Made by a program: the position numbers and the translations under genes | Shown: piece after piece, positions 56,686-62,604 of the stretch | How positions within the stretch are numbered: position 1 is the first letter of the stretch | Layout of the letters: each line of letters opens with the position of its first letter | Source of the DNA: Spartobacteria bacterium | Lineage (GTDB): Bacteria; Verrucomicrobiota; Verrucomicrobiia; Chthoniobacterales; UBA10450 | DNA: 64,000 bases | Assembly: GCA_003134785.1 (NCBI GenBank) | Contig: PLCN01000002.1 | Coordinates: 186,219 to 250,218 of the forward strand | Direction: 5' to 3' | The notes under the pieces: model-generated | The model's database searches: none | The model's input: the letters and a program-made list of their open reading frames with translations, nothing else | Told to the model about the DNA's origin: nothing

Positions 56686-57352
56686 TTGCAATTACTCGCC
56701 GCCATCCTTTTTGCTTCCGCCACGCTTGGCCACGCGGCGGAGAGCGCAGCTGGCCGATCGGAAGGCGCGGTGCAGATTCCGGGAGAAGAGCTGAGGCTCG
56801 TTCTCGATCTGTCTGAGGAAAACGGCAAAGGCTGGATCGGGTCGATTGTCGTTCCCGGCTTCGGAGTGAAGGGCGCCCCGTTGGTAGATCTCCAGGTGAG
56901 AAGTTCCGACCTGGCTTTCGCCATCAAAGGCGCCCTTGGAAACGAACGCGTCGGCAAAGCCGAACTGAGAGCACATCTCACGGGCGATGGCCATCTCGCC
57001 GGAGATTTCACGCAAGGTGGAAACACCGCGCCTTTCGTTTTGGCAAAAACCGGGCCGCCGCAGGTGGAACTCCCGCCACGCAACACGGCAGTGAGCAAGG
57101 AACTCGAAGGGGAATGGAAAGGTGAGTACGAATTGACCGGATACGTGCGTCACGTCACGATGAAGTTTTCGAATCGCGTCGCGGCGACCGGAAATTCAAC
57201 GAATCACTGCTCTTTCACTCGAGCTGGCGGGAAGCGCCGGTCGTCGCAACCGAACGCGAATTCAATATCGGCGCAATCTTTTCGTCACCCCTGGTCGTGA
57301 ACGGCGTCGTCTACTTCGGAAGCACCGATGGAAATCTGTATGCCATCGATTA
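56686..57352 (+). pseudogene. Chimeric secreted-protein gene: N-terminal domain joined out of frame to a PQQ-propeller tail
   Basis: A TTG start at 56686 with AGGAG 8-12 nt upstream gives a signal peptide (LQLLAAILFASATLGHAAES) and a 140-residue beta-rich domain (GEELRLVLDLSEENGKGWIG; EGEWKGEYELTGYVRHVTMK). After about 57190 this frame becomes meaningless and stops at 57300. Another frame there encodes EREFNIGAIFSSPLVVNGVV followed by YFGSTDGNLYAID and a stop at 57352: the last blade of a PQQ/BamB-type propeller. The gene is therefore a fusion of two unrelated remnants by deletion, with a frameshift at the joint. The N-terminal part may still be expressed. Confidence 0.65.
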
Positions 57353-57464
57353 ATCCCCACCGCTACCTAGGCAAAAAGTCCGCGCGGCGGCGTTTGCTTA
57401 ACGTGAGCCACTGGTTCGCGCGCAGCGTTTCGCCTTTCTTGAATCCATTTCAGCCCCATCCCGC

Positions 57465-57518
57465 ATCTCATCTTCGAAGCGCCCTTCATCGTCTCCAACT
57501 CCAACCTAACTCCTCGTT
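57465..57518 (+). repeat. 54-nt leader of permease gene 1 (duplicate A)
   Basis: The 54 nt directly upstream of the ATG at 57519 recur upstream of the ATG at 60112 with a single difference (T at 57506 versus C). The permease coding sequences following them have diverged much more. The leader may carry a translational or transcriptional signal; it is C- and T-rich and contains no obvious Shine-Dalgarno sequence. Confidence 0.7.
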
Positions 57519-60023
57519 ATGATCCTAGATGCCTTTCGCCAGGATATGCGCGTCGGTCTACGCATCCTCCTCAAGGAAAAATCGTTTTGTCTTCTCGCCG
57601 TGCTCGTCCTCGCTCTTGGCATTGGCGGCGCGATGACTCAGTTCGCGGTGGTCAACGCGATCGTCCTGCGCGGGTTTTCATTTCCGCACCCCGAGCAACT
57701 CGTCAGCGTCGGGCTCATTGATCCAAAAGCGAGCGATCAGAACAACAACTTCGGCAATGGCAACATTCCCGCCACGCAGGATTACGAGGACATCAAAGCG
57801 GCGCAGAAATCGTTCGCGATGATGGCCGGCTACCTGAACGGCTCGACCATCAACGTCACCTACCACAATAACCCGCAGCGTTATACCGGCGCCTACATCA
57901 CAGACGACCTGTTCAAGATCATCGGCGTCTCGCCCGTGCTCGGCCGCGATTTCAACGCCGACGACAACAAGGCTGGCGCACCGAAGACCGCAATCCTCGG
58001 CGACAAAATCTGGCGCCGCGATTTCAACGCCGATCCGAACATCGTCGGACAGAGCGTCACGATTAACGGCAAAGCGGCGACCATCATCGGCGTCATGCCG
58101 CCGGGCTTTGAGTTCCCGATCTCGGAGGAACTTTGGACGCCTCTATACAATGAGTGGCCGCCCACGCCGCGCGGCGAACTTTTCCTCGGCGCGAACGTTC
58201 GTGCACCCGCGGTGATGGGCCGCCTCAAGCCAGGCGTCACCCTCGATCAGGTCAACGCGGAGATGATCGCGATCGCGCGCAACATCGCGGCCGACAATCC
58301 GAAAACGAACCAGAATTTCACCTCCGCGAGTGTGCTGCCGCTAATCAAAGCCTTCACCCCCGTGCAGCTGCGGCAGACGGTTTGGGCGGCGCTCGGTGCG
58401 GTCATTGTCGTCCTCCTCATCGCATGCGTGAACGTGATGAACATGCAATTCGGCCGCGCCGCGCTGCGCGCGAAAGAGCTGGCCATTCGCGGTGCGCTCG
58501 GCGCCACCCGCTGGCGACTCGTTAGGCAAATGCTCACCGAGAGCCTGGTCGTAGCAATCTTCGGTGCAATCGCCGGCACGCTGCTCGCGTTTTGGGGCAC
58601 GGACATGTTCGACAAAATCGTCAAGGCCGCGCCCTTCCCGCCGCCCTACTGGTGGCACTTCACGATCGACGGCCGCGTGCTGACATTCACTCTCGCGATC
58701 ACGCTCGTCGCGACGATCGTCTCCGGTTTGCTCCCGGCCTTCCTCAGCTCGCGCGGCAACCCAGCCGAAGTGATGAAAGAAGGCGGCCGGGGCAACAGCA
58801 GCCGTCTGGTCAACGTCATAACGCGTGTGCTCGTCGTCGGACAAATCGCGCTGACGGCGGCGCTGCTCATTGCCGCGATGTTGCAGATCAAATCGATCCG
58901 CAACCAAACGAAGCTCGAGTACGGCTACGACGAGAATGGCGTCTACGCCGCGCGCCTGGCCTTGATGGAAGCGCCGTATCCGACTGAGGATTCGCGCCGC
59001 GATTTCTTCACTCGCGCGGTCCGTGCGCTGCGCAACAATCCGCAATTCGAAGCCGCGGCCATGACCGATCGCTTCCGCATGACCTTCGCGGCCGGCGGCC
59101 AGTACGAGGTCGACGGCCAAAGTTATCTGGCCGATCGCGATCGTCTGCGCTGCAATTTCGAATCGGTCTCCGACGGCTACTTCACCACGCTCGGTCTCAA
59201 GCTTCGCGAAGGCCGCGATTTCACCATTGAGGACAGCGACGCGAAGCAACCCGTCGCGATTGTGAACGCGAGCTTCGCGCGGAAACATTGGGGCAACCAG
59301 AGCGCGCTCGGACATCAGGTGCGCATCTTCAATCCCGGCAAAGAACAGCCGTGGCGCACCATCGTCGGCGTCGTGCCCGACACGTTGATGCAAGGCCCAT
59401 TCGATCAGCAGACCGAGGCGGGCGGCTTTTACATGCCGCTCCTTGGCGCCTCGCCTGCCACGCAGTTCGCGACAGTACTCGTTAGGCCACGCGCCGGTCA
59501 ACGCGCCGACACCCTCGGCCCCGTCCTGAGCAAAGCCGTCGCCGAGCTCGACTCAAACCTGCCGACGTACTTCCCCGGCACACCCGCGCAATTCCACAAC
59601 GACATCCTCTCCGGCAGCCGCGTCATCGCCATGCTCTTCAGCATCTTCGGCGTCGTCGCCTTCATCCTCGCGGGCGTCGGCCTCTACGGCGTAATGAGCT
59701 TTTCCGTGAATCAACGGACGCAAGAATTCGGCATTCGCATGGCGCTCGGCGCCGATGCGCTGCGCATCTTGCGCATGGTCATGAGCCAGGGCGCGTGGCA
59801 ACTCGCGATAGGTCTCGTGCTTGGTGCGGGCGGCATCGCGCTGCTCCTCGGCGTCGTCGCCGCCGCGGCGCTCAAGAATATCTTGTTCAACGTCAATCCG
59901 CTCGATCCTACGATTTACCTCGTTGTCTCGGGTCTGCTCACTTTGGTTGCCGCCGCGTCGTGTTTCGTTCCAGCTCGCCGCGCCACGCGGGTGAACCCAA
60001 TGGTAGCGCTGCGCACCGAGTAA
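57519..60023 (+). CDS. MacB/FtsX-type orphan ABC permease 1 (ADOP family)
   Basis: The product has 834 residues. The architecture matches 'acidobacterial duplicated orphan permeases': a short cytoplasmic start (MILDAFRQDMRVGLRILLKE), TM1 (FCLLAVLVLALGIGGAMTQF), MacB-like periplasmic domain 1 (FKIIGVSPVLGRDFNADDNK), an FtsX block with the conserved ALRAKELAIRGALGATRWRL loop, a second TM, periplasmic domain 2 (GLKLREGRDFTIEDSDAKQP), and the C-terminal FtsX block (RTQEFGIRMALGADALRILR). No ATP-binding subunit is adjacent. It probably exports or transmits signals across the envelope with a distant ATPase. Confidence 0.9.
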   Translation: MILDAFRQDMRVGLRILLKEKSFCLLAVLVLALGIGGAMTQFAVVNAIVLRGFSFPHPEQLVSVGLIDPKASDQNNNFGNGNIPATQDYEDIKAAQKSFAMMAGYLNGSTINVTYHNNPQRYTGAYITDDLFKIIGVSPVLGRDFNADDNKAGAPKTAILGDKIWRRDFNADPNIVGQSVTINGKAATIIGVMPPGFEFPISEELWTPLYNEWPPTPRGELFLGANVRAPAVMGRLKPGVTLDQVNAEMIAIARNIAADNPKTNQNFTSASVLPLIKAFTPVQLRQTVWAALGAVIVVLLIACVNVMNMQFGRAALRAKELAIRGALGATRWRLVRQMLTESLVVAIFGAIAGTLLAFWGTDMFDKIVKAAPFPPPYWWHFTIDGRVLTFTLAITLVATIVSGLLPAFLSSRGNPAEVMKEGGRGNSSRLVNVITRVLVVGQIALTAALLIAAMLQIKSIRNQTKLEYGYDENGVYAARLALMEAPYPTEDSRRDFFTRAVRALRNNPQFEAAAMTDRFRMTFAAGGQYEVDGQSYLADRDRLRCNFESVSDGYFTTLGLKLREGRDFTIEDSDAKQPVAIVNASFARKHWGNQSALGHQVRIFNPGKEQPWRTIVGVVPDTLMQGPFDQQTEAGGFYMPLLGASPATQFATVLVRPRAGQRADTLGPVLSKAVAELDSNLPTYFPGTPAQFHNDILSGSRVIAMLFSIFGVVAFILAGVGLYGVMSFSVNQRTQEFGIRMALGADALRILRMVMSQGAWQLAIGLVLGAGGIALLLGVVAAAALKNILFNVNPLDPTIYLVVSGLLTLVAAASCFVPARRATRVNPMVALRTE

Positions 60024-60057
60024 AAAATATTGTTAATCCATCTTCGGCTCGGACCGG

Positions 60058-60111
60058 ATCTCATCTTCGAAGCGCCCTTCATCGTCTCCAACTCCAACCC
60101 AACTCCTCGTT
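60058..60111 (+). repeat. 54-nt leader of permease gene 2 (duplicate B)
   Basis: This is the second copy of the leader described at 57465-57518, identical except for one base, and again ending exactly at the ATG. It starts 34 nt after the stop codon of permease 1. Confidence 0.7.
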
Positions 60112-62604
60112 ATGATCCTCGATTCTTTCCGCCAAGATGTTCGTGTCGGTCTTCGTGTCCTGTTCAAGGAGAAAACGTTCTGCGTCCTCGCCGTGATTGT
60201 GCTTGCGCTGGGTATTGGCGGGGTGACGACGCAATTCACCGTCGTGAATGCCTTTGTGCTTCGTGGGTTTTCTTTTCCACATCCCGAGCAGCTCATGACT
60301 GTCGGGCTGGTCGACCCGCTGGCCAACGCCAACCAGAACAACAACGGCGCCGGCTTCATCCCTTCGTCGCAAGATTACGAAGATTTGCGGGCGGCCCAGC
60401 AATCGTTCGCGCTTATGTCCGGCTACCTTAGTGGCTCGACGATCAACGTTACCTACAAGAACAACCCGCAACGCTGCACCGGCGGTTATGTCACGGACGA
60501 ATTCTTCAAGATCCTCGGGGTCTCGCCAATCATGGGCCGCGATTTCACGGCTGATGATAATAAACCGGGCGCGGAGAAGACGACGATTCTCGGCTACGAA
60601 ATCTGGCAGCGCGATTTTGGCGGCGATCCCAACATCGTCGGGCAAAATGTGCGCATCAACGGACGCGCCGCGACCATTATCGGTGTGATGCCGCAGGGAT
60701 TTAAGTTCCCCATCTCCGAACAGCTCTGGGTGCCGCTTTACAACGAATTTCCAGTTAAGCCGCGCGAAGATCCTACCGGACTCGGCCCACAAGTCATCGG
60801 CCGGCTCAAACCGGGTGTGAGCATCGATCAGGTGAACGCTGAATTTGTCGGCTACGCCAAGCGCCTGGCAAAGGATTTTCCAAAGTCGAACGGCCAGTTG
60901 ATTTCCGCTAGTGTGCAACCGATGATCAACGGCTTCGTCGGTCCGCAATTGCGCCAGACCGTTTACGCGATGCTGGGCGCGACCGTAATGGTGTTGCTGA
61001 TCGCCTGCGTGAATGTGATGAACATGCAGTTCGGTCGCGCAGCTTTGCGCGCCAAGGAACTGGCCATCCGCGGCGCGCTCGGGGCCACGCGCTGGCGGAT
61101 CATGCGGCAAATGCTGACGGAAAGTCTACTCGTCGCCATGTTAGGCGGGATCTTTGGCGTGCTTCTCGCCTGGTACGCCGTCGGTCTCCTGGTAAGCGCA
61201 ATCGGAAGTCTGCCATTCCCATTGCCTTATTGGGTAAGCTTCGACATCGACGGCACTGTGCTCGCCGCGACGCTTGCGGTAACTTTGTTGGCCACGATTT
61301 TTTCCGGTCTTATTCCCGCGTGGTTGAGCGCGCGCGCTAATCCGGCCGAGGTAATGAAGGAAGGCGGACGCGGAAATAGTAGCCGCCTCGTTAACGTGAT
61401 CACGCGCGTTCTTGTCGTCGGTCAGATTGCTTTCACCGCCGCGTTGCTCATCGGGGCCTCGCTCCAGGTCAAATCGATCCGCAATCAGACGACGCTCGAT
61501 TACGGCTACGACGAAAACGGAGTTTACAGCGCGCGCATGGGTCTGTTCGAGGGTGACTACCCAACCACGGAAGCGCGGCAGCAATTTTTCGCGCGGGCCG
61601 TCCGCGCGCTTCGCACTAATCCCGCTTTCGAAGCCGCTGCGATGAGCGACCGCTTTCGCATGACCTTCTCGAACTTCGGCCAATTCGAAGTCGACGGCCA
61701 GACCTACGTGACCGATCGGGATCGGCCGCGCGGCAATTCCGAGTCGGTCTCCGACGGGTACTTTTCCACGATGGGACTAAAAATCCTGGAAGGCCGCGAC
61801 TTCACCCTCGATGACAACGACGCGAAGCAGCCGGTCGCAATCGTCAACGCGAGTTTTGCGAAGAGATGGTTCGGCAAGGAGAGCCCGCTCGGCCGCCGCG
61901 TTCGCGCTTTCAATCCGGCCCAGCCGCAACCGTGGCGCACCATCATTGGCGTCGTGCCCGATACGCTCATGCAGGGACCGTTCAATCAGCAGACGGATAG
62001 CGCCGGTTTTTATACTCCGCTGCTTGGTGTCCCGCCCGCGCCGCAGTTTGTCACGATCGTTGTCCGCCCACACCAGGGGCAGCGCGCGGACACCCTGGCG
62101 CCCGCGCTCGGCGCGGCGGTCAGTCAGCTCGATTCCAATCTGCCGACCTATTTCGGGGGCACGCCGGCTCGGTTGCACGATGAAATTCTCGGCGTCAATC
62201 GCATCACCGCGGCGCTATTCACCATTTTCGGGCTGGTGGCGGTGGTGCTTTCATCCGTCGGGCTGTACGGCGTCATGAGTTTTGCGGTGAGTCAGCGCAC
62301 GCAGGAATTCGGCATCCGCATGGCGCTGGGCGCAAACGCGGCGCGCATTCTTCGCATGGTCATGACTCAGGGCGCATGGCAACTCGCCATCGGTCTTGTC
62401 CTTGGCGCCGGATCCGTTGCGCTCCTGCTTAGAGCCATCGGCGGCGCGGCGCTGCAGAACTTCCTCTTCCAAGTGAACGCGCTCGACCCATTCATTTACA
62501 CTGCCGTAGCCGCGCTGTTGGCGACCGTTGCCGCAGCCTCGTGTTTCGTTCCGGCGCTCCGCGCTACGCGCGTCAATCCAATGGAAGCGTTGCGAACTGA
62601 ATGA
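60112..62604 (+). CDS. MacB/FtsX-type orphan ABC permease 2 (ADOP family)
   Basis: The product has 830 residues, a tandem paralogue of permease 1 with the same domain order. Shared blocks include FFKILGVSPIMGRDFTADDN, ALRAKELAIRGALGATRWRI, GYDENGVYSARMG and RTQEFGIRMALGANAARILR. Differences are concentrated in the periplasmic domains, so the two may recognise different partners or substrates. It follows permease 1 with an 88-nt gap. Duplicate pairs of this type are typical of Acidobacteria and some Verrucomicrobia. Confidence 0.9.
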   Translation: MILDSFRQDVRVGLRVLFKEKTFCVLAVIVLALGIGGVTTQFTVVNAFVLRGFSFPHPEQLMTVGLVDPLANANQNNNGAGFIPSSQDYEDLRAAQQSFALMSGYLSGSTINVTYKNNPQRCTGGYVTDEFFKILGVSPIMGRDFTADDNKPGAEKTTILGYEIWQRDFGGDPNIVGQNVRINGRAATIIGVMPQGFKFPISEQLWVPLYNEFPVKPREDPTGLGPQVIGRLKPGVSIDQVNAEFVGYAKRLAKDFPKSNGQLISASVQPMINGFVGPQLRQTVYAMLGATVMVLLIACVNVMNMQFGRAALRAKELAIRGALGATRWRIMRQMLTESLLVAMLGGIFGVLLAWYAVGLLVSAIGSLPFPLPYWVSFDIDGTVLAATLAVTLLATIFSGLIPAWLSARANPAEVMKEGGRGNSSRLVNVITRVLVVGQIAFTAALLIGASLQVKSIRNQTTLDYGYDENGVYSARMGLFEGDYPTTEARQQFFARAVRALRTNPAFEAAAMSDRFRMTFSNFGQFEVDGQTYVTDRDRPRGNSESVSDGYFSTMGLKILEGRDFTLDDNDAKQPVAIVNASFAKRWFGKESPLGRRVRAFNPAQPQPWRTIIGVVPDTLMQGPFNQQTDSAGFYTPLLGVPPAPQFVTIVVRPHQGQRADTLAPALGAAVSQLDSNLPTYFGGTPARLHDEILGVNRITAALFTIFGLVAVVLSSVGLYGVMSFAVSQRTQEFGIRMALGANAARILRMVMTQGAWQLAIGLVLGAGSVALLLRAIGGAALQNFLFQVNALDPFIYTAVAALLATVAAASCFVPALRATRVNPMEALRTE

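Follow-up and report, generated by a model that had tools for sequence, protein, structure and literature searches.

An ECF-type promoter-like unit and a native leader before two tandem, diverged ADOP permease genes

Introduction

Soil Verrucomicrobia and Acidobacteria carry many ADOP permeases, and to our knowledge little is known about the control of these proteins. A 64,000-nt stretch of contig PLCN01000002.1 from a Spartobacteria bacterium (the window) carries two such genes in tandem, A and B, each preceded by almost the same 54 nt. Why do two permease genes that have clearly diverged keep a nearly identical leader? A sequence-only reading of the window had offered a translational enhancer, a regulator site, an RNA element, or gene conversion limited to this part. 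Taken as a whole, the explanation that we favor, and hold to be very probable, is that the leader is a native part of an ECF promoter unit behind which the permeases were swapped.

Results

The two leaders and their genes

The features concerned are the following:

57465..57518, + strand: leader copy 1, the end of the −10-like element described below plus the predicted 5′ UTR of gene A; 53/54 positions as in copy 2
57519..60023, + strand: ADOP permease A, 834 aa; TIGR03434 766 bits (cut-off 622); MacB_PCD and FtsX
60058..60111, + strand: leader copy 2; 53/54 positions as in copy 1
60112..62604, + strand: ADOP permease B, 830 aa; TIGR03434 780 bits (cut-off 622)

Permeases A and B each contain two stretches of MacB_PCD and two of FtsX, and both belong to the ADOP family. 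Gene B starts 88 bp past gene A, and no ATPase gene was found between them or directly beside either. The near-identity of the 54-nt leaders was confirmed: 53 of 54 positions agree, T57507 versus C60100 being the sole mismatch. Identity extends 8 nt into both genes, through ATGATCCT, which gives a 62-nt common block with one mismatch. Allowing up to 3 mismatches, a 31-nt core of the leader occurred in the window only at the two leaders (expected by chance, 0.00), and a 36-nt core occurred only at these same two places in the 4.39-Mb genome. The leader therefore does not recur before the other ADOP genes of the genome, where the sequence-only reading had proposed to look for it. A search for a plasmid copy of the locus gave no match.

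The reported lower similarity of the proteins and of the DNA further upstream also held. The two proteins are 70–71% identical, and the adjoining coding DNA shows 77% identity in the first 60 nt and 67–71% thereafter. Upstream of the leaders, identity is 57% at −84 to −55 and 47% at −150 to −85; random 54-nt pairs have a median of 45% and a 95th percentile of 53%. These upstream values are thus random or nearly so. A simple recent duplication of leader plus gene was rejected, since it would have left the coding regions equally identical over hundreds of bases and they are 67–77% identical.

In related genomes (loci L371 and L375), a gene for a ~200-aa protein and an intact gene for a 435-aa PQQ/BamB-like beta-propeller lie upstream of the leader. 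In the window (56686–57352), both genes look fused and truncated by deletion; of the propeller, the C-terminal end alone is left (closing with YFGSTDGNLYAID and a stop), out of frame.

The leader begins within a two-part motif

Upstream regions from the same genus, where the leader was found directly before ADOP genes, and from more distant genomes were aligned. This yielded two ungapped motifs of fixed spacing, M1 and M2, which are placed in the window as follows:

57370..57394, + strand: M1, or P(ECF#2), distal promoter-like element of gene A, GGCAAAAA-N8-GGCGGCGTT; one mismatch
57440..57470, + strand: M2, or P(ECF#1), putative proximal promoter of gene A, TGAATCCA-N15-GCATCTCA; exact match
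57477..57477, + strand: predicted transcription start of A, +6 after GCATCTCA, from the conserved A at +5/+6
60033..60063, + strand: decayed M2 before gene B, TTAATCCA-N15-GGATCTCA; two mismatches (G000:C25:246251-246281, G000 being the source genome)

The leader is no isolated 54-nt unit. It starts partway through M2, with ATCTCA as the last bases of the −10-like second half; the other half lies at 57440–57447. M2 was found exactly at 7 sites in the source genome and at none in backwards controls. Across 197 genomes, exact matches were present in 73 of 83 members of the same family and in none of the 114 others of the order, the controls being zero throughout. When spacers of 10–20 nt were permitted, only 14 or 15 nt occurred, so the spacing is nearly constant. 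We read 112 M2 sites, nearly all of them close upstream of a start codon. The genes behind them encode 52 ADOPs, 21 DUF6249-type proteins, 12 DUF2807 lipoproteins, 11 small MKPT-type proteins and 3 HlyD-type adaptors, together with single genes of other kinds; secreted proteins are also among the targets.

The most conserved position downstream of M2 at the 112 sites is an A at +5/+6, independent of the distance to the ATG. It carries 1.1–1.3 bits when the sites are anchored on M2, versus at most 0.6 bits for any position anchored on the ATG. Some M2 genes are of the leaderless type, with the ATG beginning at +6, 6 nt after the motif. At locus L245, M2 starts inside the T-tract of a tRNA-Gly terminator, and no sigma-70-like site was found there. 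With no room for another promoter, this locus argues that M2 is, or contains, a promoter. Sigma-70 promoters were not found near the window leader either. Two observations count against a promoter. The Shine–Dalgarno-like sequence AAAGGA begins at about +4 in many M2 genes, so that the predicted start would fall inside it. In addition, a canonical sigma-54-like site lies 27–43 nt upstream of M2 at 11 sites, nearly all of them before one small-protein family, and at one ADOP, and M2 could there be transcribed and act otherwise. On balance, the evidence supports M2 as a putative ECF sigma promoter, with the leader carrying its −10-like half and the predicted 5′ UTR; the regulator site of the sequence-only reading is supported in this specific form.

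The sigma-54-like sites of the MKPT-type genes, which encode ~100-aa proteins with no Pfam match, have the canonical form TGGCAC-N5-TTGC and lie 27–30 nt upstream of M2 (L124, L161, L173, L217, L230, L264, L266, L275, L284). This arrangement suggests dual sigma-54 and ECF control. The sequence GATGC was present in 12 of 112 M2 spacers versus 1.3 expected (L151, L160, L161, L173, L211, L217, L229, L230, L233, L264, L266, L293). In most of these it is part of an inverted repeat, GATGC-N5-GCATC, that extends over the −10-like half and is possibly an overlapping operator.

ECF#1 as the likely reader of M2

An rpoE-like gene, ECF#1 (G000:C12:30511-31047), encodes a 180-aa protein that scores above cut-off for PF04542, PF08281 and the superfamily model TIGR02937. 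It has sigma regions 2 and 4_2 only and is nearest to RpoE/SigW/SigM-type factors. Of the ECF-type sigma genes of the genome, this one sits in an M2-headed operon, which runs M2, DUF6249 protein, ECF#1, and a small DUF5056-like membrane protein (112 aa with a membrane-type stretch, 40–86% conserved, its DUF5056 match being weak and below cut-off). M2 occurs exactly before the DUF6249–ECF#1 operon in at least 20 genomes and, at the corresponding position, with 0–3 mismatches in each of another 18 genomes; it was upstream of the operon at all loci read, as predicted for an autoregulated sigma factor. ECF#1 has orthologues (79–100% identity) in 77 of the 83 genomes of the family and in 0 of 114 others, a distribution that matches that of M2. 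About 55% of ECFs are autoregulated, and their promoters are commonly inferred on that ground (PMC8103513). The M2-headed operon, the matching distribution and this habit of ECFs together point strongly to ECF#1 as the most likely reader of M2. Against the pairing stands the number of proteins above the sigma-r4_2 cut-off in the genome (~28), and a DNA-binding activator that shares the distribution of ECF#1 may read the motif instead.

The ECF#1 operon adjoined a tRNA-Gly(GCC) gene in 10 of 10 loci scanned, at no more than 9 distinct genomic places and in either orientation (L329 3705-3779, L242, L245, L235, L250, L279, L291, L149, L222).

A second element before gene A, and the M2 copy of gene B

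The consensus of M1 is GACAAAAA-N8-GGCGGCGTY. At up to one mismatch, M1 occurs in the genome, besides gene A, only directly upstream of a second sigma gene, ECF#2 (G000:C7:4886-5377), behind which lie an anti-sigma-like gene and one for a PDZ protein. It precedes ECF#2 in all 20 orthologues of the family for which upstream DNA could be compared, which suggests that M1 is a conserved autopromoter-like element of ECF#2. At 3 mismatches, its genome-wide occurrence is not above background. M1 lies within 130 nt upstream of M2 at 12 of 112 sites, all before ADOPs (mean for shuffled sequences, 0.15), and the distance between the motifs is either 8–10 or 31–47 nt. M1 and M2 thus appear to serve gene A as tandem ECF promoters. 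Before four other ADOP genes (L165, L167, L283, L289), M1 ends just 8 nt before M2. At this distance the −35-like half of the proximal element takes in the predicted distal start, and the two promoters may interfere.

The M2 copy before gene B is decayed, as is its counterpart in the related genome G004, and no terminator was seen between A and B. This makes read-through a likely route, and B is probably expressed mainly by read-through from A. There are ~30 ADOP genes in the genome, only about 4 of them with an exact M2. Roughly twelve ADOP genes form an array (G000:C4:187330-220416) with zero exact M2 sites, which suggests that most ADOPs of the genome are under other control.

These observations can be combined into a model. 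Polymerase carrying ECF#1 would bind TGAATCCA-N15-GCATCTCA at 57440–57470 and begin transcription near A57477, leaving a 5′ UTR of ~42 nt before permease A. ECF#2 would use M1 at 57370–57394 as a second promoter of gene A, and gene B, with its degraded promoter copy, would be made mainly through read-through. The leader pair would stem from duplication, or from homogenization by conversion, and at this locus the native promoter-leader would persist while coding regions swap. The unit would have a role in envelope stress.

Origin of the leader pair

The same promoter-leader lies upstream of a single permease in three related genomes (G002, G006, G007). In G005 the native permease is followed by an A-type gene without a leader, G004 has the arrangement of the window, and in G001 and G003 the promoter motifs also precede a native-type permease. 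The window leaders are 84–93% identical to those of G002, G006 and G007 and 80–84% identical to those of G004; compared with the DNA upstream of the closest A and B relatives elsewhere, identity is 51–57%, near random. The coding region of A is ~93% identical between G000 and G004, versus 75–84% for the leader and flanks, with edges at the start and stop codons. Over its first 60 nt, A resembles the native permeases more closely than it does A-type genes from outside the genus; for the remainder this is reversed. The breakpoint thus lies at the start of A, pointing to a crossover early in the gene. In a tree in which some nearby forks are weakly supported, B falls outside the native permeases of the genus, apart from the permeases that stand behind the same leader in related species. 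By these comparisons, we read the promoter-leader as native to the locus and the coding regions as exchanged behind it.

The two leaders of the window (98% identical) are closer to each other than either is to any leader of a related species (80–93%). A value above every between-species comparison points to duplication or conversion within this lineage. The gene conversion suggested by the sequence-only reading is compatible with this, and so is a local duplication; the near-identity would reflect a recent event of either kind, with different permeases installed behind the leaders. A wider version, in which a ‘socket’ with two different ECF promoters in tandem stayed put as permease coding regions with separate origins were swapped and grew in number behind it, we put forward tentatively, as somewhat short of an even bet.

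Alternative explanations

M2 could instead be an operator bound by an activating or repressing transcription factor, with the leader being what follows it. The GATGC-N5-GCATC repeat, which takes in the second half of the motif at some sites and whose half-site exceeds expectation as counted above (12/112 versus 1.3), would suit an operator, as would the M2 sites downstream of sigma-54-like sites. However, the repeat is mostly confined to one gene family, and the two halves of M2 are neither an inverted nor a direct repeat of one another. The spacer of 14–15 nt, the motif-anchored A and the ATGs 6 nt downstream fit a promoter, L245 offers no place for a different one, and M2 heads the ECF operon in every genome checked. 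We regard an operator as improbable. Even less likely, and very improbable, is a cis-acting RNA or translational element under selection. Related permeases do stand behind both leaders, and the UTR is unusual, being pyrimidine-rich without an obvious Shine–Dalgarno sequence. Yet the leaders fold no better than shuffled sequences (z of +1.2 and +1.3), and Rfam gave no match at threshold, its best matches being far below the gathering score and outside the leader, which leaves the proposed RNA element unsupported. Moreover, the leader is 83% identical between G006 and G007, where the native coding region is 85–88% identical; it diverges as fast as the coding region and so shows no excess conservation. 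The leader is also absent from the closest A and B relatives elsewhere. An RNA element made by M2 itself was considered separately, in view of the Shine–Dalgarno-like purines after the motif and the GATGC-N5-GCATC hairpins. Three points led us to discard it: pairing is impossible in most spacers, the conserved A tracks the motif and not the ATG, and the motif heads the ECF operon wherever checked.

The leader pair might also be a pure relic of recombination, recently duplicated or converted and with no bearing on expression. This is rather unlikely as the full account, and it is largely complementary to the ECF promoter unit. The higher identity of the leaders within the genome (98%) than between species (80–93%), the decayed promoter of copy 2 and the recent exchange of the A coding region all suit it, and copy 2, taken alone, may need no other explanation. 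What it leaves unexplained is the intact promoter core of copy 1, which is common to unrelated genes in 73 genomes.

Discussion

For a family of soil bacteria represented here almost entirely by metagenome-assembled genomes, the ECF promoter unit supplies an explicit, testable candidate sequence for a promoter, together with the name of a sigma factor and a list of putative targets: ADOPs, DUF2807 lipoproteins, HlyD-type adaptors and secreted proteins. The locus further illustrates that a leader common to diverged neighbors can mean ‘same promoter, swapped genes’. If the socket arrangement is true, the lineage changes its exporters and yet keeps one stress input.

Like the ADOP permeases that define TIGR03434, A and B both exceed the curated cut-off and have no adjoining ATPase gene. 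The open-access papers that we searched contained nothing relevant on the M2 motif, on ADOP regulation or on the ECF factors of this group; the regulation that we propose for A and B was not found there. Tandem promoters that bring stress sigma inputs together on one gene, such as those of Escherichia coli rpoE, share with the arrangement proposed for gene A the placing of several sigma-specific promoters before one gene. Here, in contrast, the elements are two different ECF-type ones, which in some ADOPs are 8 nt apart.

The closest parallels to ECF#1 are the RpoE/AlgU/SigW-type factors. In common with these, ECF#1 is a two-domain sigma factor of regions 2 and 4_2 with an apparently autoregulated operon, in which the small membrane-type neighbor may be an anti-sigma partner; its putative promoter is in two parts with fixed spacing, and the targets include envelope and export functions. 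Unlike in these systems, the consensus is TGAATCC / GCATCTCA and not GGAACTT / TCTRA-type or AAC / CGT, the operon opens with a DUF6249 protein, and, among the genomes searched, the system is limited to one family of Chthoniobacterales. The regulon and its promoter would be new, within a kind of ECF sigma factor that is already known.
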